Virus record (IMG/VR): IMGVR_UViG_3300025000_000379
Location: 1-26,523 of that record
Source of the DNA: a virus
Reading direction: 5' to 3' (one strand)
DNA length: 26,523 nucleotides
This document shows, piece after piece, positions 17,888 through 26,523 of this stretch. Position 1 is the stretch's first letter. Each line of letters begins with the position of its first letter. The notes beneath the pieces are model-generated. The model saw nothing but the letters and a program-made list of their open reading frames with translations, was not told the DNA's origin and did not search any database. A program made the translations under genes and the position numbers.

Positions 17888-18415
17888 ATGAACCTGACAA
17901 GCCATCACACCATGCTCGAAGACGATCTCGCCGACCTTCTTTCTGGGGACTACGAGGACCTACCACAAGCTGTGGCCATGCAGGATGGCGAGATATTCAC
18001 CGTCGCCGCCCCCACTCCTACTGTTCTCAAACGCGACACAGTCAACCGCTGGGACCCCAGGCTCATCCTCGACCTGGCCCTGGGGGTGGAAGACCTCGAC
18101 ACCGTCCTGCCCCGCTATAACCTCACTCCAGACGACTACGAGACCCTGGCCCACTCGCCGATCTTCAGGCGGGAGCTGGCTCTGACCATCCGCGACGTCC
18201 GCGAAAACGGCCTGCCGTTCAAAGCCAAGGCCCGGGTCCAGGCAGAGGCCTACCTCGAGGTCTTAGACGAGCTGGTGTACAGCGACGGGACGCCGGCCAG
18301 CACCCGGCTGGAAGCAATCAAGTCGACGGTGGCCTGGGGCGGCCTGATCCCCAAAGAGAGCAAGGAAGAAACCGGCGCCACTGGCAGTACTATCAATGTC
18401 CAGATCAATTTCTGA
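17888..18415 (+). CDS. Possible small-terminase-like protein, first gene of the rightward arm
   Basis: The 175-residue product has a helical core: RWDPRLILDLALGVEDLDTVLPRYNLTPDDYETLAHSP resembles a HTH-containing phage module, followed by FRRELALTIRDVRENGLPFKAKARVQAEAYLEVLDELV. The C-terminal motif TRLEAIKSTVAWGGLIPKESK precedes a short hydrophobic tail (INVQINF). This order is seen in phage proteins often labelled small terminase subunit or left unannotated. No large terminase follows, so the call is tentative. The start is uncertain: the ATG at 17888 has no ribosome site, and a TTG at 17852 and an ATG at 17912 are alternatives. Codon use is GC-rich. Confidence 0.62.
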   Translation: MNLTSHHTMLEDDLADLLSGDYEDLPQAVAMQDGEIFTVAAPTPTVLKRDTVNRWDPRLILDLALGVEDLDTVLPRYNLTPDDYETLAHSPIFRRELALTIRDVRENGLPFKAKARVQAEAYLEVLDELVYSDGTPASTRLEAIKSTVAWGGLIPKESKEETGATGSTINVQINF

Positions 18416-18436: not shown

Positions 18437-18754
18437 ATGGGCGACATCATCACCCCTCAGACCACAGCCAAGACCTCGGACGTCATCCATCTGACCCGTG
18501 GACCCTTCCCGAAGACCATCCATGCGGTCGGACCGTTCGCCGCCAACACGATCGCCGTCAATATCGTCACAGCCATGGATGCAGCAGGTGCAGCGACGGC
18601 CGTCCTGCCGCTCTACGACGCCTTCGGCGCCGCGGTGACCATCACCGCCACCTCCCAGCCGATCACCATCCCCAGCCCCATCAGGCTGCAGTTCGTCAAG
18701 ACGGAGTCGGTAGGTGCCACCATCGGCGTCGCTCTGGTTGAGCAGGAGTACTGA
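18437..18754 (+). CDS. Small beta-rich protein of unknown function, 105 aa
   Basis: Not recognised. It has an excellent AAGGAG six bases before ATG at 18437. The sequence is alanine/threonine-rich with repeated beta-strand patterns (HAVGPFAANTIAVNIVTAMD, VTITATSQPITIPSPIRLQF, VGATIGVALVEQEY), suggesting a small all-beta structural or decoration protein. It has no signal peptide and no cysteine. It sits between the terminase-like gene and the tail-esterase gene with tight spacing, which suggests a virion part, but this is inference. Confidence 0.62.
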   Translation: MGDIITPQTTAKTSDVIHLTRGPFPKTIHAVGPFAANTIAVNIVTAMDAAGAATAVLPLYDAFGAAVTITATSQPITIPSPIRLQFVKTESVGATIGVALVEQEY

Positions 18755-18755
18755 T

Positions 18756-20558
18756 ATGTCTGTCTTCTTCGACCCGTTCCACTCACTGACCAACGAGCCA
18801 TTCGGGCAGAACTTCGGCTCTGCTCTCTCCGCCGGCGGCGACGCAGGGCTCTACCCCGACACTGAGAACTTACTGGCGTGGTACCGCACCGACATCGTCG
18901 ACGGGAACCTCAAAGCCTGGCTGCCTCCGGGCACCAGCCATGTCACACAGCAGGTAAAAGGCTCTGGCTTCCTCGGCGCGGGCAGCGCCACTGTAGCTGG
19001 CCTGTTGGTCAGCGACACCATCACCTCCAGCGGGCCATCTGATCCGATATGCAGCGTGGCTGGCACGCTGACTTTTCCTGGGCCGGATTGCTGGGATATT
19101 GATGTGTTCCGGGATGGGGTGAGGTGGGCGAGTTGGAAGGGGATAAACGTCAGTAAAGATGCTGAGTTAGATGCCTCTGGTAATGGTCACCATCTCACGG
19201 CGCTGGTGACTACTACCATCACCGAGAGGCTGGACGGGACGGGCAGCAATTGGCTAAACGAGAGGGGGTATAGCCTCACCGGATTAGGTCCAGAGATGAT
19301 ACCTGCCGTCCAGGACCGGGAGATGACCTATGACTCAGGAGTCTGGGATAATGGGACCGGCACCACATGGATTATTGGCGGCGGCTTTGCGACTCACACA
19401 GGTGCAGGATCTTCGTTATACGGGATACCAATCGTCGTAGGCAAACAGTACAGATGCCGGTTCACTATACATCAGCATGGTGGCAGCTATGTAGGCATCT
19501 CAGGATCTACGATGGCGGCTGGGTATTATCCCGCAACGGTCGGTGCGTTTTCAAAAGATTTTACCGCAACCGGCGTAAAGCTGAATTTTTACTCTGATTC
19601 AGAATCAAAAATTACAGTTGAATCCCTCCGGGAAATCATCACATACAAAACACCTGCATCAGTGCGCGGGTTGCCCTCCGATATCGGACGAGTTGTATGT
19701 ATCGGGGATAGTCTCACAAATGGGTATGTCGGATACATATCGTCGCTTAACCCCTCTACCGAGTTTTATTACGCAGGCATAGGTGGGAGCACATCAACTC
19801 AGGTGGCGGCAAGATTTCAAGCCGATGTCGTGGACGCAGGGGCCACAGATTGTATCCTGCTGGTAGGGATAAATGATATTATTGCAGGGACTGCTGCGAC
19901 AGCGATAATGGCAAAAATCACAGAGTGTGCCGTGCTCTGTGTAAATAATAACATACGATTGATGGTGTCCACCCTGCCGCCATTCGGGAGTCACGCATCA
20001 TGGTCATCTGCAAAACAGACACAGTTGGAGTCGTTCAATACCCTCCTGGCTGCGTATTGTGCGGCAAATGGGCACACTCTCGCAGATCTCTACGCTACAT
20101 GGAAAGATCCGAGCACAGTGGCATTGCTGGTGTATTATGAAACTGCTGATCATCTACATCCTAACGTAATTGGGTCGAAGGCGCAGGCCGATCTATTCAG
20201 TAGTCTATTGCCGACTACATACTCTGCTGGGGATGCTTACAGTGAGCCGTTGTTAATCCCCGGCCCCCTCGGCATAGACGGCCCAATAACCGGCACCACC
20301 ATAACCGCCCCACTCGGCCCGAAGTTCCAGGCCATCGACACCTTCACGAACGGCGCAGCGGTAGACCTCGCCACCCTCGTACCGACAACACAGGTGCGGA
20401 CTGGACCACGGGGGACGCTGGTCTATCGCACTGCGCTGGATGCTGCCGGGATTATCCGAGCTGATCGGGTGGTGGGGTATGTCGCGCCTGAAGAAGTTGA
20501 TTTACTATTTATAAACGAAGATCAAGCGACAATAAATGACGACCCACTAACATTCTGA
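18756..20558 (+). CDS. Tail protein with SGNH/GDSL esterase domain
   Basis: A 600-residue protein with AGGAG eight bases before ATG at 18756. The N-terminal 130 residues (DTENLLAWYRTDIVDGNLKAW) and C-terminal 100 residues look like structural attachment parts. A beta-rich, possibly carbohydrate-binding section spans about 190-300. The SGNH hydrolase domain covers about 310-485: GDSLTNG (317-323, Ser319), AGIGGS (about 340-345), VGIND (370-374, Asn373) and DHLHPN (465-470, Asp465 and His468). Such domains remove acyl or acetyl groups from surface sugars and help phage adsorption. It has no signal peptide, unlike the genes after it. The esterase-encoding middle is visibly less GC-rich than both ends, which suggests domain exchange. 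Confidence 0.85.
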   Translation: MSVFFDPFHSLTNEPFGQNFGSALSAGGDAGLYPDTENLLAWYRTDIVDGNLKAWLPPGTSHVTQQVKGSGFLGAGSATVAGLLVSDTITSSGPSDPICSVAGTLTFPGPDCWDIDVFRDGVRWASWKGINVSKDAELDASGNGHHLTALVTTTITERLDGTGSNWLNERGYSLTGLGPEMIPAVQDREMTYDSGVWDNGTGTTWIIGGGFATHTGAGSSLYGIPIVVGKQYRCRFTIHQHGGSYVGISGSTMAAGYYPATVGAFSKDFTATGVKLNFYSDSESKITVESLREIITYKTPASVRGLPSDIGRVVCIGDSLTNGYVGYISSLNPSTEFYYAGIGGSTSTQVAARFQADVVDAGATDCILLVGINDIIAGTAATAIMAKITECAVLCVNNNIRLMVSTLPPFGSHASWSSAKQTQLESFNTLLAAYCAANGHTLADLYATWKDPSTVALLVYYETADHLHPNVIGSKAQADLFSSLLPTTYSAGDAYSEPLLIPGPLGIDGPITGTTITAPLGPKFQAIDTFTNGAAVDLATLVPTTQVRTGPRGTLVYRTALDAAGIIRADRVVGYVAPEEVDLLFINEDQATINDDPLTF

Positions 20559-20565
20559 GGACTCT

Positions 20566-21948
20566 ATGAAAAATTTATTTTTATTCCTGTGTTTTCTCCT
20601 GGTGGCCTCAACGTACTCGATGGCTGCGAATGTTGACACCGATATTGATAACAACGGATACATCGATATTGCCTACGGCGGGACCAATGCGGCTACTGCT
20701 GCTAATGCAAGAACGTCACTGGGTGTTCCAGCTACAGCTTCAACCTTGGCTGGCTCCTGTACAGTAGGCCCATGCCTTGACGGTACAAGCGATGGTGGTG
20801 ACCTGATCAAGCTCTACGGCCCTGGAGGTTTTTGGACCGCACTGCAGGCTGGGAATTCGGTCGCCAATAGATCATGGAGACTACCTCTTGCCGCAGCCCC
20901 TGGTGCAGGAACTACCAGGCTGATGAATATGGACGAGAACGGCCAGATGGGTTTTGTTGATCCGGCTACGTTTGCCGCAGCTCTTGGTGCTGATGATAAC
21001 TATGTGACAGATGCCGAAAAAACCGTCATTGGGAATACCAGTGGCACTAATACTGGCGATCAGGTTATCAGCGACACAGCTTACGATGCTACCACCTGGA
21101 ACGCCAACACCGATGCAGCCACCAAGAATGCTATAAGGGACAAGATCGAATCACTGGCTGGCGGGCATAGTGCTGTCACAATCAACGCCACGGCCAACGG
21201 ACTTAGCGTTGATGGAAGCCAGGTTCTTACGCTTGGTTTAGCCTCTACCAGCACAATTGGTGCCCTCTCGGATACGGATTGGGATACATTTAATAACAAG
21301 GTTGGCCTTTCCTCTGTACCATCTGCCGACAACCAGATTATGCAATCAACTGGTGTTGGTACATACGCCTGGACCAATTCCCTGGAGGGGATTGGAGATT
21401 TCACTGATGCTGGAAGTTATAATAAGATCACGATAACCCAACCAGCTACCGGTGCAACCCTTACGCTCGTTGATGGATCAAGTCTTATTACTGCCGGGGC
21501 CTACAGCACAACCTTAACGGCTACTGGGGCAACGGACGTAACCCTACCGACTACAGGTACGTTGGCAACCACAGTAGTACCAGAGGTCAACGGTTCTGCC
21601 AGTGGCAACCTGACCGCTGCAAACGTGTCATCGACAATCGTCTACAACACCGGCATGGGCGCGGCAGACGTTGCCTTGGTCCTGCCAACCGCTGCATCTG
21701 GATACTCGGTAATTTTCACAGTCGGGACGGCACAATCTAACAAGTGGGGGGTTCAAGCAGGAGCGAGTGATAAAATCTATCTGCTGGCCGCTGATGGCAC
21801 AATAGCAGCAGGGGCGGACAATGGGTATGCTCGCATGACCGCTGCACAAGTTGGACAATCGTTTGCCTGCTGGACATTCAAGACGGATGCCTATGACTGG
21901 ATGTGCAAATCAATTTCGATTGGAACATCAACCTTTGCAGCCAACTAA
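20566..21948 (+). CDS. Tail-fibre-like protein with an N-terminal signal peptide
   Basis: A 460-residue protein. MKNLFLFLCFLLVASTYSMA is a clear Sec signal peptide with likely cleavage near residue 20-21. The mature part has tail-fibre features: DIAYGGTNAATAANARTSLG (about 34-53), the recurring fibre motif SGTNTGDQ (159-166), SDTAYDATTW and KNAIRDKIE (about 169-195), and serine/threonine-rich repeats to a C-terminal lectin-like end. Fibre proteins normally assemble in the cytoplasm, so an export signal is unexpected. It may decorate the cell surface, or the signal may be a remnant of host origin. GAGGA overlapping the previous stop serves ATG at 20566. Confidence 0.82.
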   Translation: MKNLFLFLCFLLVASTYSMAANVDTDIDNNGYIDIAYGGTNAATAANARTSLGVPATASTLAGSCTVGPCLDGTSDGGDLIKLYGPGGFWTALQAGNSVANRSWRLPLAAAPGAGTTRLMNMDENGQMGFVDPATFAAALGADDNYVTDAEKTVIGNTSGTNTGDQVISDTAYDATTWNANTDAATKNAIRDKIESLAGGHSAVTINATANGLSVDGSQVLTLGLASTSTIGALSDTDWDTFNNKVGLSSVPSADNQIMQSTGVGTYAWTNSLEGIGDFTDAGSYNKITITQPATGATLTLVDGSSLITAGAYSTTLTATGATDVTLPTTGTLATTVVPEVNGSASGNLTAANVSSTIVYNTGMGAADVALVLPTAASGYSVIFTVGTAQSNKWGVQAGASDKIYLLAADGTIAAGADNGYARMTAAQVGQSFACWTFKTDAYDWMCKSISIGTSTFAAN

Positions 21949-21949
21949 T

Positions 21950-22642
21950 ATGAAAAAATTCATGCTGAGTTTGATCTTGTGCCTATGGGCCTCTGCTTCG
22001 TGGGCGTTTCCTCCGGGCTTTATTGGGGCTATTACACAGGGGGCAGCTGGGGGCACTCCAGATCCAGCAATAGCCTATGAAATCTATTCTAGTAATAGTG
22101 GAACAGGGACCGCTGCAACCTTCTCCACCCCTACAGGGACCACAGACGGTGACCTTCTGGTTATGGTGGTCAACGAGGATGCAGGTACGGGGATCACACC
22201 CCTTGCCGGGTGGACACAGATTGCTTATGTCGATAGCTATGCGTCAGCCGACGCTGGGGTATACTACCGAGTGTTTCAGACCGGCGATGCAGTGCCATCC
22301 GCGACGATAGGTTCATCCACCGAGTGGTCCGGGGTTGTGGTGAGGTTGAGCAAAACCACTGGAACGTGGTCGATAGCTGATTTCGCTGCCGCTGGAACGT
22401 TAGTTCCACTTACAGTCACTGCGACAAACCCAGGAATGCTGCTTTTCTTGTGGGGGTCTGATGATCCTGCCACTATCAACACACCCCCCGCTGGTATGAC
22501 AGAGGTAGTGATAGTCACTCCCGCCAGTAGTCGTGCTGGTGCTTGGAGGCAGAATGTTTCTTCGGCTGGCGATTACGAAAAATCCCTGAACGTAACCGAT
22601 CAAAACGCACACTTTCTGGTGGCTATAGGGCTGACGCTATGA
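21950..22642 (+). CDS. Secreted beta-sandwich-like protein, 230 aa
   Basis: The ATG at 21950 overlaps neither neighbour by more than four bases and gives a signal peptide, MKKFMLSLILCLWASASWAF. A short glycine-rich link (GFIGAITQGAAGG) leads to a beta-rich domain (GDLLVMVVNEDAGTGITPLA, SGVVVRLSKTTGTWSI, GMLLFLWGSDDPATI). It resembles phage minor-tail or host surface proteins with jelly-roll folds. No catalytic residues are evident. The stop overlaps the next start (ATGA). The function is unknown. Confidence 0.75.
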   Translation: MKKFMLSLILCLWASASWAFPPGFIGAITQGAAGGTPDPAIAYEIYSSNSGTGTAATFSTPTGTTDGDLLVMVVNEDAGTGITPLAGWTQIAYVDSYASADAGVYYRVFQTGDAVPSATIGSSTEWSGVVVRLSKTTGTWSIADFAAAGTLVPLTVTATNPGMLLFLWGSDDPATINTPPAGMTEVVIVTPASSRAGAWRQNVSSAGDYEKSLNVTDQNAHFLVAIGLTL

Positions 22643-24396
22643 TGATCAGACTGCTACTCTTGATATCGCTTCTCATCTTTCCGGGTCTGTCTTTCGGGGC
22701 GGTCCACGACATTACTGGACTCCCGATTACGGCTTCAGGATGGACGGACTTTGCCACGATGACCGGGGGAGGCGGCTACTCAACATCTCGCGTAATCTTT
22801 GTTTCCTCTACGGATGGTGATGATGGGACCGGGACACCAGATACAATCGCCAACGTCACGTTTGATGCCTACGGATCATTTCAGCCTGCCGGTACAATCC
22901 ATCCCTATGCCACGGTAGGCGCTGGATACACGCAAATGAGAGACGGGTATGCAGATATCCTCCTGCTCAAGCGGGGAGATAACTGGGTGACACGGTTCTC
23001 TACTGGCGGGGTTGGCAATTGGACAAAATCTGGGGCCTCGACATCTGCCAGGATGATAGTATCCAGTTACGGGACAGGGGAGAGGGCAAAAATCACATCT
23101 GACGAAGCGGGCAACGAAGCACTGAAGATTTACGGAGGGGATAACCTGATATTTTCCTCAGTGTGGTTTTACTGTCCAACGTGGGAGTCCAGTACCCCCG
23201 GCATAAGCGTCCTGCTCGACTCAAACGATATTCTCCTTGAGGATTTTTTTGTCGAGAAGCACTGGAAGAACGTCATCCAGGGCGACACCGTAAACACTGG
23301 TATTTTCGTCAACAACCTCGCCATCAGGAGATCGACATTTTCCGAGATGTCCGCCCATGACGGAATGTGGTACGCTGCAATTGCCGATAACATCCTGTTT
23401 GAAGAGAGCATATTTTATAAGCCGCACGACCCCGACGCCCTTGCCCCTGCTGTTGAGGGTAGACATTTTTACCTATCGCCTGATGGCCCGAATGGAGACA
23501 CGCACCACGACCTCACCAACGTGGTTATGAGAGGGAACATTCTCTATTACTCCGACCGTGGAGGTATCGACGGGAGGTCTGGAGGACTGTTCGACAACAA
23601 CCTCTTCGTTCAGGCTCCTGTAAATGTCGGAGGGTTTGGCGGAAGCTCGGGATCAATCCAGTCGGGAACAGTGATAAGAAACAATGTATTCGCAGAAGGC
23701 TCGGCAAATACCGGGGAGGGGACAAAACTCAAGCTCATCAATATGTTGAACACTGAGGTGCATCACAACATATTTATCGACCCCGTTGGCGTAACGGCAT
23801 CCACTTACGGCATAACTCTTTTAGGTGATGGAGAGGGTTTTAATTACTCCCATAATGTGAGTGTGCATGACAACGTGATTTACAATATCAATGGGTCAGG
23901 GTCGGGCAGAGGAATCTATATAGTAGGATTAACGGATGTCTCGGGGAATAATATCTATGACAATGATATTCAGATGCCCGCAGGCTCAACCAATCTTGTA
24001 TACCTCGATGCCTCCCCTCTATCAGGGTTCACTTATTCAGGGAACAGGTACTACTCATCTGCGGATGCGAGTACGTGGTTTTCTCCAGGCGGGACTATCG
24101 CAGGGTGGGTGACAGCAGTTGGAGAGACCGGGCACATCATCACTGAGATAACGTACCCAGATGCAACGAGGACGGTGAAGACATACAACGTCACGCTCGG
24201 AGGCACAGCCTCAACGCCAGAGTTTATGGCCGCCGCTATTGCTCAATCCCGCCAGAATTGGCGGACAGAATACACCGCCGATGCCGTTAATGATTACATC
24301 CGGGCAGGGTTCGGGATCAATTTGGGCGGCACTGCCGGAATGGGTGGATCTGGTTCGATGGGGTTGGGTGGTAGCGGGACTATGGGACTGCAATGA
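22639..24396 (+). CDS. Secreted right-handed parallel beta-helix protein
   Basis: A 585-residue protein, ATG at 22639 coupled to the upstream stop, with a second ATG at 22642 also possible. MMIRLLLLISLLIFPGLSFG is a signal peptide. From about residue 110 to 470 there are repeated beta-helix coils rich in Asn, Asp and Gly (NLIFSSVWFYC, NILFEESIFYK, NNLFVQAP, NNVFAEGS, HHNIFIDP, HDNVIYNI), as in pectate-lyase-like and tailspike folds that bind or cut polysaccharides. The end is a glycine/methionine-rich repeat (GMGGSGSMGLGGSGTMG). The catalytic residues cannot be assigned. It may be a depolymerase acting outside the cell, or a spike. Confidence 0.82.
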   Translation: MMIRLLLLISLLIFPGLSFGAVHDITGLPITASGWTDFATMTGGGGYSTSRVIFVSSTDGDDGTGTPDTIANVTFDAYGSFQPAGTIHPYATVGAGYTQMRDGYADILLLKRGDNWVTRFSTGGVGNWTKSGASTSARMIVSSYGTGERAKITSDEAGNEALKIYGGDNLIFSSVWFYCPTWESSTPGISVLLDSNDILLEDFFVEKHWKNVIQGDTVNTGIFVNNLAIRRSTFSEMSAHDGMWYAAIADNILFEESIFYKPHDPDALAPAVEGRHFYLSPDGPNGDTHHDLTNVVMRGNILYYSDRGGIDGRSGGLFDNNLFVQAPVNVGGFGGSSGSIQSGTVIRNNVFAEGSANTGEGTKLKLINMLNTEVHHNIFIDPVGVTASTYGITLLGDGEGFNYSHNVSVHDNVIYNINGSGSGRGIYIVGLTDVSGNNIYDNDIQMPAGSTNLVYLDASPLSGFTYSGNRYYSSADASTWFSPGGTIAGWVTAVGETGHIITEITYPDATRTVKTYNVTLGGTASTPEFMAAAIAQSRQNWRTEYTADAVNDYIRAGFGINLGGTAGMGGSGSMGLGGSGTMGLQ

Positions 24397-24430
24397 CAAG
24401 AAACGAGCAAACTTTACTTGGGTGAAAAAA

Positions 24431-24793
24431 ATGAAGAGACTTTTTGCAGTGGCACTGGTCGTGGGGTTGCTGTCGAGTTGTGCGATTGATTACACGAGCA
24501 TCGAGTACAATATCAAGGCAGAGGGCAGTTCAAAGGCCAACATCCGAGCTGATGGCAGCCAGTTCGACAAGTCAACCGCACAGGATGCCAGTATGCCTGG
24601 AGCAGCCCTTGAAGGATTCCTTGATGCGCTGAAACCAGACGTGCCAAGCATTGTTGAGAAGGTACAGGAGCCGGTTGTACCTCCGCTCGCTCCGACAGAA
24701 CCCTCCACTCCTATCTTTCCTGATGTTACACCGCCGGCTGAAGAACTCGCTGACCCCATCGAGCCTGAAGGCCAGATTGAGGAGGTAGACTGA
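24431..24793 (+). CDS. Proline-rich lipoprotein, 120 aa
   Basis: MKRLFAVALVVGLLSSC gives a signal peptide with lipobox LSSC and an acylation cysteine at residue 17. The mature part has a short polar section (AIDYTSIEYNIKAEGSSKAN), a helix and a long acidic proline-rich tail (VPPLAPTEPSTPIFPDV, then EPEGQIEEVD). It is probably anchored in the outer membrane with a flexible tail. Outer-membrane spanins are also proline-rich lipoproteins, but no inner spanin partner is visible, so this is only one possibility. The stop overlaps the next start (TGATG). Confidence 0.72.
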   Translation: MKRLFAVALVVGLLSSCAIDYTSIEYNIKAEGSSKANIRADGSQFDKSTAQDASMPGAALEGFLDALKPDVPSIVEKVQEPVVPPLAPTEPSTPIFPDVTPPAEELADPIEPEGQIEEVD

Positions 24794-25590
24794 TGTTCAG
24801 GTTAGTGCTGGCGCTTGTCTTACTCTGGGCGGTGCCGGCCAGTGCAGTGACCATACCTCAGTCGCTTAACGAGTGCAACGCCCTTTGTGCTCAGTATTTT
24901 CCGGGAGGTGTGCCAGTCACACCACCGATAACGCCCCCTGCCACACCTCCATCCGGCAACAAGACATTCCCGCACCAGATCACCTTCGAGCGAGAAACCA
25001 CTCAGGGCAACGGCTCAGCCGGCATCCTGTTCAGGACCCTGCAGGCCGGATCGATTACCTACGTCTCGGTCAACGGCGAGGTTGCGAGGCAAGGCACACC
25101 GTACAAAGGAGCACCGGTCTTCCTGCTGACCAAGTCCGGCGATCAGTATGCCAGGCCGCTGCAGTTCGTGATCAAAATGGCTGACGGTGTGACGTATACT
25201 GCCAAGAGTGGCACCGCCGGAGAGACAACTGGACCGGTTACCCCGGGAGTATATAAGAACTCTGCGACATACAAGGCATACGGAAAAAGGAATGGTGATA
25301 GGTGGGCGTGGCGCATCAACAAACGAGGCGATTCCCTCGGCTCAGGGCCGGTAAAATTCACCTTCTCGGACGGACTGACTTTCGTGGTCAAAGACCCGAA
25401 CAAGAACTGTCGAGATAGAGAGGATACCTGCAATAGGGATTCCCGTGCGGAGAAAGACGGATTTCTGTACAAGCCGGGCAACGGGTTACCGAATGGAACC
25501 GGTGATGCAGATCGCGGCACGGCGCACGGTGGCATCTATCTCCATGCTCCTTACGGGAACGATAGCAAAGAAGTGAAAATGCAATGGTAA
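24793..25590 (+). CDS. Secreted protein with cysteine pairs and a proline linker, 265 aa
   Basis: Starts by TGATG overlap. MFRLVLALVLLWAVPASA is a signal peptide. NECNALCAQYFPGG (about residues 26-39) and NCRDREDTCNRD (about 204-215) hold two cysteine pairs each suited to disulfides in the periplasm. A PPITPPATPPSG linker separates the N-terminal part from a beta-rich body (HQITFERETTQGNGSAGILF, VTYTAKSGTAGETTG, VKFTFSDGLTFVVKD). The end has YLHAPYGNDSKEVKM. The family and function are not recognised. Confidence 0.72.
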   Translation: MFRLVLALVLLWAVPASAVTIPQSLNECNALCAQYFPGGVPVTPPITPPATPPSGNKTFPHQITFERETTQGNGSAGILFRTLQAGSITYVSVNGEVARQGTPYKGAPVFLLTKSGDQYARPLQFVIKMADGVTYTAKSGTAGETTGPVTPGVYKNSATYKAYGKRNGDRWAWRINKRGDSLGSGPVKFTFSDGLTFVVKDPNKNCRDREDTCNRDSRAEKDGFLYKPGNGLPNGTGDADRGTAHGGIYLHAPYGNDSKEVKMQW

Positions 25591-25667
25591 TTTGTCCCCA
25601 ATGTGGGCACAAATATACCGGTCCAAGATGCCCGATATGTAATTATCCAAACGAAGATTGCGACTGA
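25584..25667 (+). CDS. 27-aa double-CxxC zinc-ribbon peptide
   Basis: A tiny ORF overlapping the previous gene by seven bases, with ATG at 25584. The peptide has CPQCG (residues 4-8) and CPICN (16-20), eight residues between the pairs, and an acidic end with one more cysteine (NYPNEDCD). Two CxxC knuckles this close define a minimal zinc ribbon. It is too short for usual gene finding. Coupling and the conserved-looking cysteine spacing support it; the function is unknown. Confidence 0.5.
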   Translation: MVICPQCGHKYTGPRCPICNYPNEDCD

Positions 25668-25695
25668 AGTTTTCCTTTACTTCCTGGAGGGAGAG

Positions 25696-25884
25696 ATGAG
25701 GGTGATTGCGGAAGCGAGTTTGCACATGAGTGACAGGGACGAGAACGGTATTCATCAGGTAAAGGATCGCTACTGCCCGGAAGACGGCCCCTGCTTCTCC
25801 TTCGACTACAACGGGCGGAAGAACAAAGGCTGTGAGAGGTTCAGGCAGCAACCTACCGGAGTAAAATTATGCGTCAAATTATAA
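25696..25884 (+). CDS. Small cysteine-containing protein, 62 aa
   Basis: ATG at 25696 follows GGAGGGAG, a very strong site; the longer frame from 25603 overlaps the zinc-ribbon ORF and is not preferred. The sequence is polar (MRVIAEASLHMSDRDENGIH) with cysteines in YCPEDGPCFSFDYN and KGCERFRQ, and ends basic. It has no signal peptide. Its last 16 bases overlap the start of the thermonuclease gene. The function is unknown. Confidence 0.6.
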   Translation: MRVIAEASLHMSDRDENGIHQVKDRYCPEDGPCFSFDYNGRKNKGCERFRQQPTGVKLCVKL

Positions 25885-26333
25885 TCCTCATCCTATTCTT
25901 TGTAGCCTCAACTGCCCACGCCGAGCCGGCCACGGTAGTCAATGTCGTCGACGGCGACACCCTCAAGGTAGCCACTGAGCAAGGTATCACTGTAGTTCGT
26001 CTCTACGGCGTCGACTCCCCTGAGAAATCCCAGGCGCACGGCCAGTCCGCCCGGGACTTCGCCGCCTCGCAAGTCTTCGGCAAGATCGTCGACGTCGCCC
26101 CGGTCGGCAGGGACCGCTACGGACGGACAGTTGCCCTCGTCATGGTCGGCACCCAATGCCTGCAGGAGCAGCTGATCCTCCAGGGCTACGCTTGGGTTTA
26201 TCCAGACTACTGCAAGGAGAGGTTCTGCCAGGCATGGACGACCTTGCAGGGCATCTCCGCCGGCAACAAGGTGGGGTTATGGGTGGACCCGGCACCGGTA
26301 CAGCCGTGGATATGGAGGAAACAGGCGCGATGA
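25869..26333 (+). CDS. Exported thermonuclease (SNase family)
   Basis: A 154-residue nuclease with signal peptide MRQIIILILFFVASTAHAE (cleavage near A18). The staphylococcal-nuclease fold motifs are VVDGDTL (26-32), VRLYGVDSPE (43-52) and DRYGRTV (82-88). R44, E52 and R86 match the catalytic set, and D28, D30 and D49 are calcium-type ligands. It would cleave DNA or RNA in the periplasm or outside the cell, not in the cytoplasm. It overlaps the previous gene by 16 bases and its stop overlaps the next start (ATGA). Possible uses are clearing DNA at lysis or blocking incoming DNA; both are inference. Confidence 0.92.
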   Translation: MRQIIILILFFVASTAHAEPATVVNVVDGDTLKVATEQGITVVRLYGVDSPEKSQAHGQSARDFAASQVFGKIVDVAPVGRDRYGRTVALVMVGTQCLQEQLILQGYAWVYPDYCKERFCQAWTTLQGISAGNKVGLWVDPAPVQPWIWRKQAR

Positions 26334-26523
26334 ACCATTTCCCAGAACCGAAATTCGAGTTCATTCCTTGCACCATCAGAGCCAGGCTTCTTGAGGATTA
26401 CGTGTACCAGATCGGGGAGTCCAGGCCGATAATCATTCCGGAGGGGTTCGAAACCGATTTTGCCAGCGTCCCGCGCCCGCTCTGGCCGATTGCCTCTCCA
26501 ATGGGGATTCTCCGTTACGGCTC
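26330..26523 (+). CDS. DUF1353-type phage protein, C-terminus outside the window
   Basis: The frame runs from ATG at 26330 to the window edge (64 complete codons). The motif GFETDFASVPRPLW (about residues 42-55) is the signature of DUF1353 proteins, which phages often encode near tail or lysis genes. The biochemical role is not established to my knowledge. ATG overlaps the thermonuclease stop (ATGA), and GGAGG lies about 12 bases upstream. The partial length prevents further comparison. Confidence 0.82.
   Translation, partial: MNHFPEPKFEFIPCTIRARLLEDYVYQIGESRPIIIPEGFETDFASVPRPLWPIASPMGILRYG

Follow-up and report, generated by a model that had tools for sequence, protein, structure and literature searches.

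The virus record analysed here, a 26.5-kb stretch that is referred to in full as the window, contains a run of late genes (20566–26333) the products of which are very probably exported via the Sec pathway, whatever role they have. Six of its seven genes begin with a Sec signal, five of the SPase I type and one with a lipobox. The reading that we favour, with a probability of approximately 0.45, is that the run encodes late-expressed, Sec-exported cargo that clears or masks surface glycans or receptors, and extracellular DNA, around lysis. Phages normally retain tail fibres and enzymes that cut sugar polymers within the cell, and the assumption has been that fibres and depolymerases work solely in the virion or once lysis has occurred. 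A cassette exporting them, recurrent in phages with little else in common, would mean that certain tailed phages put fibre and lyase parts to work on the infected cell. Annotation would change too: the genes would be labelled tail fibre or depolymerase, although their products may never become part of a virion.

The left part of the window contains, on the minus strand, a replication set of a DUF927 protein, an SNF2 helicase, a DHH protein, a PD-(D/E)XK nuclease, and a family A DNA polymerase, which is approximately 30% identical to those of Pseudomonas (KPP25) and Rhizobium phages. The late genes occupy the plus strand from position 17888 onward:

17888–18415, plus strand, small-terminase-like protein of 175 residues at the start of the late block (55–87% identical in L052, L008, and L009)
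18437–18754, plus strand, conserved late protein of 105 residues without a signal, 5′ of the tailspike-like gene (43–97% identical in relatives)
18756–20558, plus strand, tailspike-like protein without a signal, with an SGNH/GDSL hydrolase domain (Pfam Lipase_GDSL_2, 7e-14)
20566–21948, plus strand, trio gene 1, tail-fibre-like protein (the L002 relative matches tail fibre PHROGs); SPase I signal MKNLFLFLCFLLVASTYSMA (first 20 residues, 20566–20625), likely cleaved before ANVDT
21950–22642, plus strand, trio gene 2, partner of 230 residues (weak match to PHROG 3329); SPase I signal MKKFMLSLILCLWASASWA (21950–22006), likely cleaved before FPPGF
22639–24396, plus strand, trio gene 3, predicted right-handed beta-helix of the polysaccharide lyase/tailspike type (AlphaFold model, Foldseek, VIA); signal MMIRLLLLISLLIFPGLSFG (22639–22698), likely cleaved before AVHDI
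24431–24793, plus strand, putative lipoprotein with a low-complexity, proline-rich tail; signal MKRLFAVALVVGLLSS (24431–24478) with lipobox LSSC, likely cleaved before CAIDY
24793–25590, plus strand, protein of 265 residues with an Ig-like middle domain and a conserved C-terminal domain (HGGIYLHAPY), found at approximately 25 IMG/VR loci; SPase I signal MFRLVLALVLLWAVPASA (24793–24846), likely cleaved before VTIPQ
25696–25884, plus strand, protein of 62 residues with four cysteines and without a signal (53–95% identical in relatives)
25869–26333, plus strand, predicted exported staphylococcal-nuclease homologue (Pfam SNase, 3e-17); SPase I signal MRQIIILILFFVASTAHA (25869–25922), likely cleaved before EPATV
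26330–26523, plus strand, DUF1353 gene truncated where the record ends (Pfam DUF1353, 3e-9)

The N-terminal motif of the small-terminase-like protein resembles that of the gene directly before TerL in Pseudomonas phage Rollin; a Pfam search with the protein gave no match. The terminase, portal, capsid, and lysis genes were found in relatives of the window, one of which (G001; 68.4 kb with a 127-bp end repeat) is probably a complete genome. The signal-bearing run is positioned between the small-terminase-like gene and the DUF1353 and lysis genes, not within the head or tail gene block. Lysis genes are located near the run in relatives, and these neighbours, together with the strand, point to late expression. 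The tailspike-like protein 5′ of the run has 32–60 conserved N-terminal residues (approximate limits), which are followed by unrelated bodies in L087, L083, L081, and G008. It is probably a virion protein, the conserved N-terminus of which resembles a virion anchor.

Signals were called by a written rule that requires a positively charged n-region, a charge-free hydrophobic h-region, and an AxA-type site or lipobox. Applied to seven cultured phages, the rule marked 5 of 394 genes, which gives a background of 1.3%. It recovered Lom and Bor of phage lambda, which served as positive controls, and marked no fibre; it also marked Rz, an anchor and a known kind of false call. Five genes of the window are marked, all of them within the run. 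The sixth signal, that of 22639, has a positive n-region, a strong h-region, and a weaker LSFG/A site; it was missed by the rule and judged by eye. The chance of finding six signal genes among seven consecutive genes at the 1.3% background is of the order of 1e-11. Chance or miscalled starts as the source of the signals are ruled out by this background together with the conservation of the signals in relatives. The lipoprotein gene has an alternative GTG start at 24422, from which the lipobox is unchanged.

Signals are retained in each of the protein families. All 30 complete N-termini from trio slots, across 11 phages, have a hydrophobic core and a positive n-region (neutral in one case), and AxA-type sites are modestly enriched over shuffled c-regions (28 observed, 21.5 expected). 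In the nuclease family, each of the 16 distinct proteins has a hydrophobic leader that ends with a small-residue site, and the lipobox is kept in all 11 distinct members of the lipoprotein family with a complete N-terminus. The six signal-bearing gene starts of the original prediction were confirmed in the sequence; the run that they define also includes the signal-less gene 25696–25884.

The six genes had been regarded as one exported set. They instead constitute a trio, a pair formed by the lipoprotein and the 265-residue protein, and the nuclease, each with its own distribution. The order of the trio is a tail-fibre-like protein, a partner of approximately 200–250 residues, and an enzyme of a glycan-active type. 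It occurs in nine phages (the window, L079, L003, L007/L009, L092, L002, L078, L097, and L099, in which the start of the fibre is missing) and in a two-gene form in two more (L054 and L042); judged by contig prefix, these loci derive from several metagenome sets. The trio is missing from L052/G008, the relative closest to the window, and is therefore optional, dispensable cargo. In G007, an otherwise unrelated phage, the trio is located among replication genes on the strand opposite to the structural block.

Comparison of their sequences indicates that the fibre-like proteins of the trio are mosaics. The mature N-terminal part of 20566 shares 116 residues with L078 at 77% identity, and its last 120 residues are 81–82% identical in L003 and L002, the bodies of which are different. 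The 20566 protein has no PHROG match, and the L002 relative with the same C-terminal domain has many matches to tail-fibre PHROGs. The fibre domains are preceded by a signal in every copy with a complete N-terminus. The signal type varies: the fibre of L042 begins with MRNLLIVMPLLALTACANNQ, which contains a lipobox (LTAC), and that of L054 begins with MKKLFIIMAVLMLPSTVFGAAA, an SPase I signal, with the two proteins being 69% identical in the mature part, compared over the first 170 residues. Because SPase I signal and lipobox are swapped on homologous fibres, the N-termini behave as export signals. In several phages, the mature partner retains a short conserved beginning, FPPGFI, FAPGFI, or GPGF. 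Cysteine pairs are conserved in the fibres; their use as proof of an oxidising compartment was dropped, since the 265-residue protein keeps its pair in a signal-less form. A candidate N-terminal domain common to exported fibres and the signal-less fibres of L052 and L083 amounted to a 13-residue motif that was not significant, and was rejected. Signal-bearing fibre-like proteins were also observed in unrelated IMG/VR contigs (L010:2051–4933, L013:1259–2602, L035:7028–11602, and L038:9329–14632), in the last of which additional proteins encoded nearby also bear signals; other fibres that share the motif are mostly without signals.

The third protein of the trio, 22639, has no match to a Pfam family. 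Its AlphaFold model, built from four sequences, is of moderate confidence (pLDDT 63, pTM 0.76). Foldseek matched the model to GH136 and also to PL6 enzymes with E-values down to 1e-6, and VIA-align gave a Z-score of 22.9 to RbmB and of approximately 21–22 to PL6 lyases and phage tailspikes. The protein is thus modelled as a parallel right-handed beta-helix, and it is possible that it binds its target without cutting. The enzyme slot is occupied by a GH123-like protein in L054 and by a PL14-like protein with an fn3 domain in L002, both identified by weak but consistent Pfam matches. A glycan role is suggested mainly because unrelated glycan-active folds swap in one exported position.

The start of the gene for the 265-residue protein overlaps the stop of the lipoprotein gene, and the two genes travel together. 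They are also present in L043, the terminase and capsid of which are different, and form a second pair that moves separately from the trio. One lipoprotein encoded by a Desulfobulbaceae genome (L101, L103) joins a part similar to the phage lipoprotein to the C-terminal domain of the 265-residue protein; the similarity of 24.8 bits comes from a small search and calls for caution, as the segment is of low complexity. This joining in one polypeptide suggests that the two phage proteins act together. The C-terminal domain is also found in lipoprotein form, both in L077 and in genomes of Desulfobulbaceae. In four relatives, the 265-residue protein has a CPxC start instead of a signal (L084:5473–6156, L087:6785–7474, L089:4610–5293, and L006:6555–7244, the last shared with L092), so export is not obligatory for it. 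With an SPase I signal, a lipobox (L077), or a signal-less CPxC start, the family apparently represents compartment switching of one domain. A Foldseek search with the fold of the 265-residue protein returned nothing significant (best E-value 0.011), and VIA gave generic Ig-like matches alone, to residues 60–142 with Z-scores of 5–7. Copies of the C-terminal domain are located beside an rsmE-like gene in Desulfobulbaceae (L104:7782–8297 and L105:8001–8805), and two tandem copies are present in Desulfoprunum.

The nuclease matches Pfam SNase with 63.5 bits against a cut-off of 21. In an alignment with PDB entries, the equivalents of the catalytic residues D21, R35, D40, E43, and R87 of the family are kept, and T41 is replaced by serine. 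The protein thus resembles the staphylococcal (micrococcal) nuclease family in its SNase domain, catalytic residues, and export signal; unlike staphylococcal nuclease, it is phage-borne and has the Thr41 to Ser replacement, and its homologues in cultured phages are at most 42% identical. The 62-residue protein encoded between the 265-residue protein and the nuclease matches no known family.

Export of the run, as had been proposed, is well supported by the recurrence of its components in other phages, the SPase I–lipobox swap, and the lipoprotein forms of the 265-residue C-terminal domain. The proposal that polymers and DNA are the targets of the exported proteins is consistent with the beta-helix fold, the GH123-like and PL14-like substitutes, and the SNase domain; these targets are predicted only. 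The other proposed roles, a remodelled surface of the infected cell and a block to superinfection, are speculative. We infer the following course of events for the favoured reading. The fibre-like protein, its partner, and the enzyme, of the type that cuts sugar polymers, would cross the inner membrane via Sec and have their signals removed. The lipoprotein would be anchored in a membrane, probably working with the 265-residue protein, and the nuclease would be exported as well. In the periplasm, and then outside after lysis, the fibre-like protein would bind glycans of the host's own surface or matrix, the enzyme would cut these, and DNA would be cut by the nuclease. This would spare progeny from being trapped on the dying cell, on its debris, or in the slime around it, and would hinder late superinfection.

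The nearest working precedents, by analogy, are Llp of phage T5 and Lom of phage lambda. Llp blocks the receptor against secondary infection and against nonproductive adsorption to fragments of lysed cells (PMC9586334). Like the 24431 protein, it is a phage-made exported lipoprotein, and it protects the infected cell; however, Llp blocks FhuA directly, whereas the 24431 protein is longer, of low complexity, and recognised as a lipoprotein by its lipobox. The lom gene is located beside tail fibre genes (PMC12309495). Lom and Bor resemble the proteins of the run by description, in being phage-encoded with a Sec signal or lipobox; however, each is a small outer-membrane protein that stands alone, and they are neither fibres nor lyases nor products of a multi-gene run. 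The nearest solved folds to 22639 are those of RbmB, a biofilm-polysaccharide lyase of Vibrio cholerae, and of PL6 lyases, bacterial enzymes with 13–14% identity to it; the likeness is one of fold. The tailspikes and depolymerases Sf6, Dettilon, and phi29 gp12 share with 22639 the right-handed beta-helix (Z-scores 20–22) and likely a glycan target. By contrast with these, 22639 is predicted to be exported and is separate from the virion-type tailspike gene. To our knowledge, the phage beta-helix tailspikes and depolymerases belong to the virion and carry no Sec signals.

The fibre-like protein, its partner, and the beta-helix protein could instead be receptor-binding parts of the virion, which are first exported and become incorporated into the particle at lysis or later, or in which the hydrophobic N-terminus is kept as an assembly anchor. 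In architecture, the fibre corresponds to real tail fibres (L002, several tail-fibre PHROGs), the beta-helix resembles phage tailspikes, and the trio adjoins the tailspike-like gene. Furthermore, the structural block of G007 (28350–30176, minus strand; L073), a phage otherwise different from the window, includes a signal-bearing fibre-like protein of 608 residues, so some signal-bearing fibres could be virion parts. Nevertheless, we consider this explanation unlikely for the trio. Behind the signals there is no conserved virion-anchoring N-terminus of the kind found in 18756, the trio of G007 is off the structural block, and the rule marked no fibre in the cultured phages. The AxA and lipobox cleavage signatures also speak against it, and an assembly anchor is hard to square with the alternation of two types of export signal on one mature domain. 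The position of the G007 trio away from the structural block, and the presence of the pair in L043 despite its different terminase and capsid, are what would be expected of cargo. The separate signal-less tailspike-like gene 5′ of the run and the retention of nearly all SNase catalytic residues also speak for cargo; the fibre in the G007 structural block, the signal-less 265-residue forms, and the lack of the trio in L052/G008 speak against it. The balance is towards cargo, although not decisively.

A cargo function could also be confined to public goods, in which the enzyme and the nuclease, released by lysis, degrade the polysaccharide and DNA of the biofilm matrix and thereby open the way for progeny to new hosts, with no role on the infected cell. 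The closeness of the beta-helix to RbmB and PL6 lyases, the GH123-like and PL14-like substitutes, and the exported SNase agree with this. However, a lytic phage could free such proteins at lysis without signals, and the fibre-like protein and the lipoprotein would be superfluous, which makes the explanation improbable. It is far less probable still that the genes are morons that alter the surface of a lysogen, as Lom and Bor do. Lom provides a precedent inside a late region and Bor one beside lysis genes, and the 265-residue C-terminal domain is also found in bacterial genomes. Against this, no integrase was seen in the window and none was recognised in the searched part of the gene sets of relatives; the genes are on the late strand by the lysis genes and are not separate units; and a search of 395 genomes sampled from the phylum of Desulfoprunum, run without a positive control, gave no match to the fibre C-terminal domain. 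Returning to exported cargo that acts around lysis, a more specific form of it is conceivable but doubtful: a recurrent mobile cassette, in which tail-fibre-type binders and exchangeable glycan enzymes are exported to conceal or degrade the receptors of the phage itself, either from the periplasm or on debris during release, as a receptor-destroying module built out of tail-fibre components.

Surface proteins exported by phages are known, as are phage depolymerases. No description of a conserved exported cassette that combines a fibre with an exchangeable glycan enzyme was found in the open literature that was searched. Searches by tblastn with the fibre, 265-residue, and beta-helix proteins gave no match in 50,697 phage records, and therefore there is no annotated or host-assigned relative among them. 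The C-terminal domain of the 265-residue protein is present in 4 of 93 Desulfobulbaceae genomes and also in other phyla; a host from Desulfobacterota is therefore only a lead.

Two further features were observed in the compared sequences. The terminase-like gene of L087 (11282–13570) encodes 762 residues, in comparison to 453 in relatives, and has an intein-like insertion at the P-loop (GPIG/CTSADTEFL...); a Pfam search gave no match, and PHROG 32482 covers the inserted part. In L101 (4304–5377, minus strand), a phage-integrase domain is fused to TOBE domains, an arrangement resembling TunR-type regulators of sulfate-reducing bacteria.
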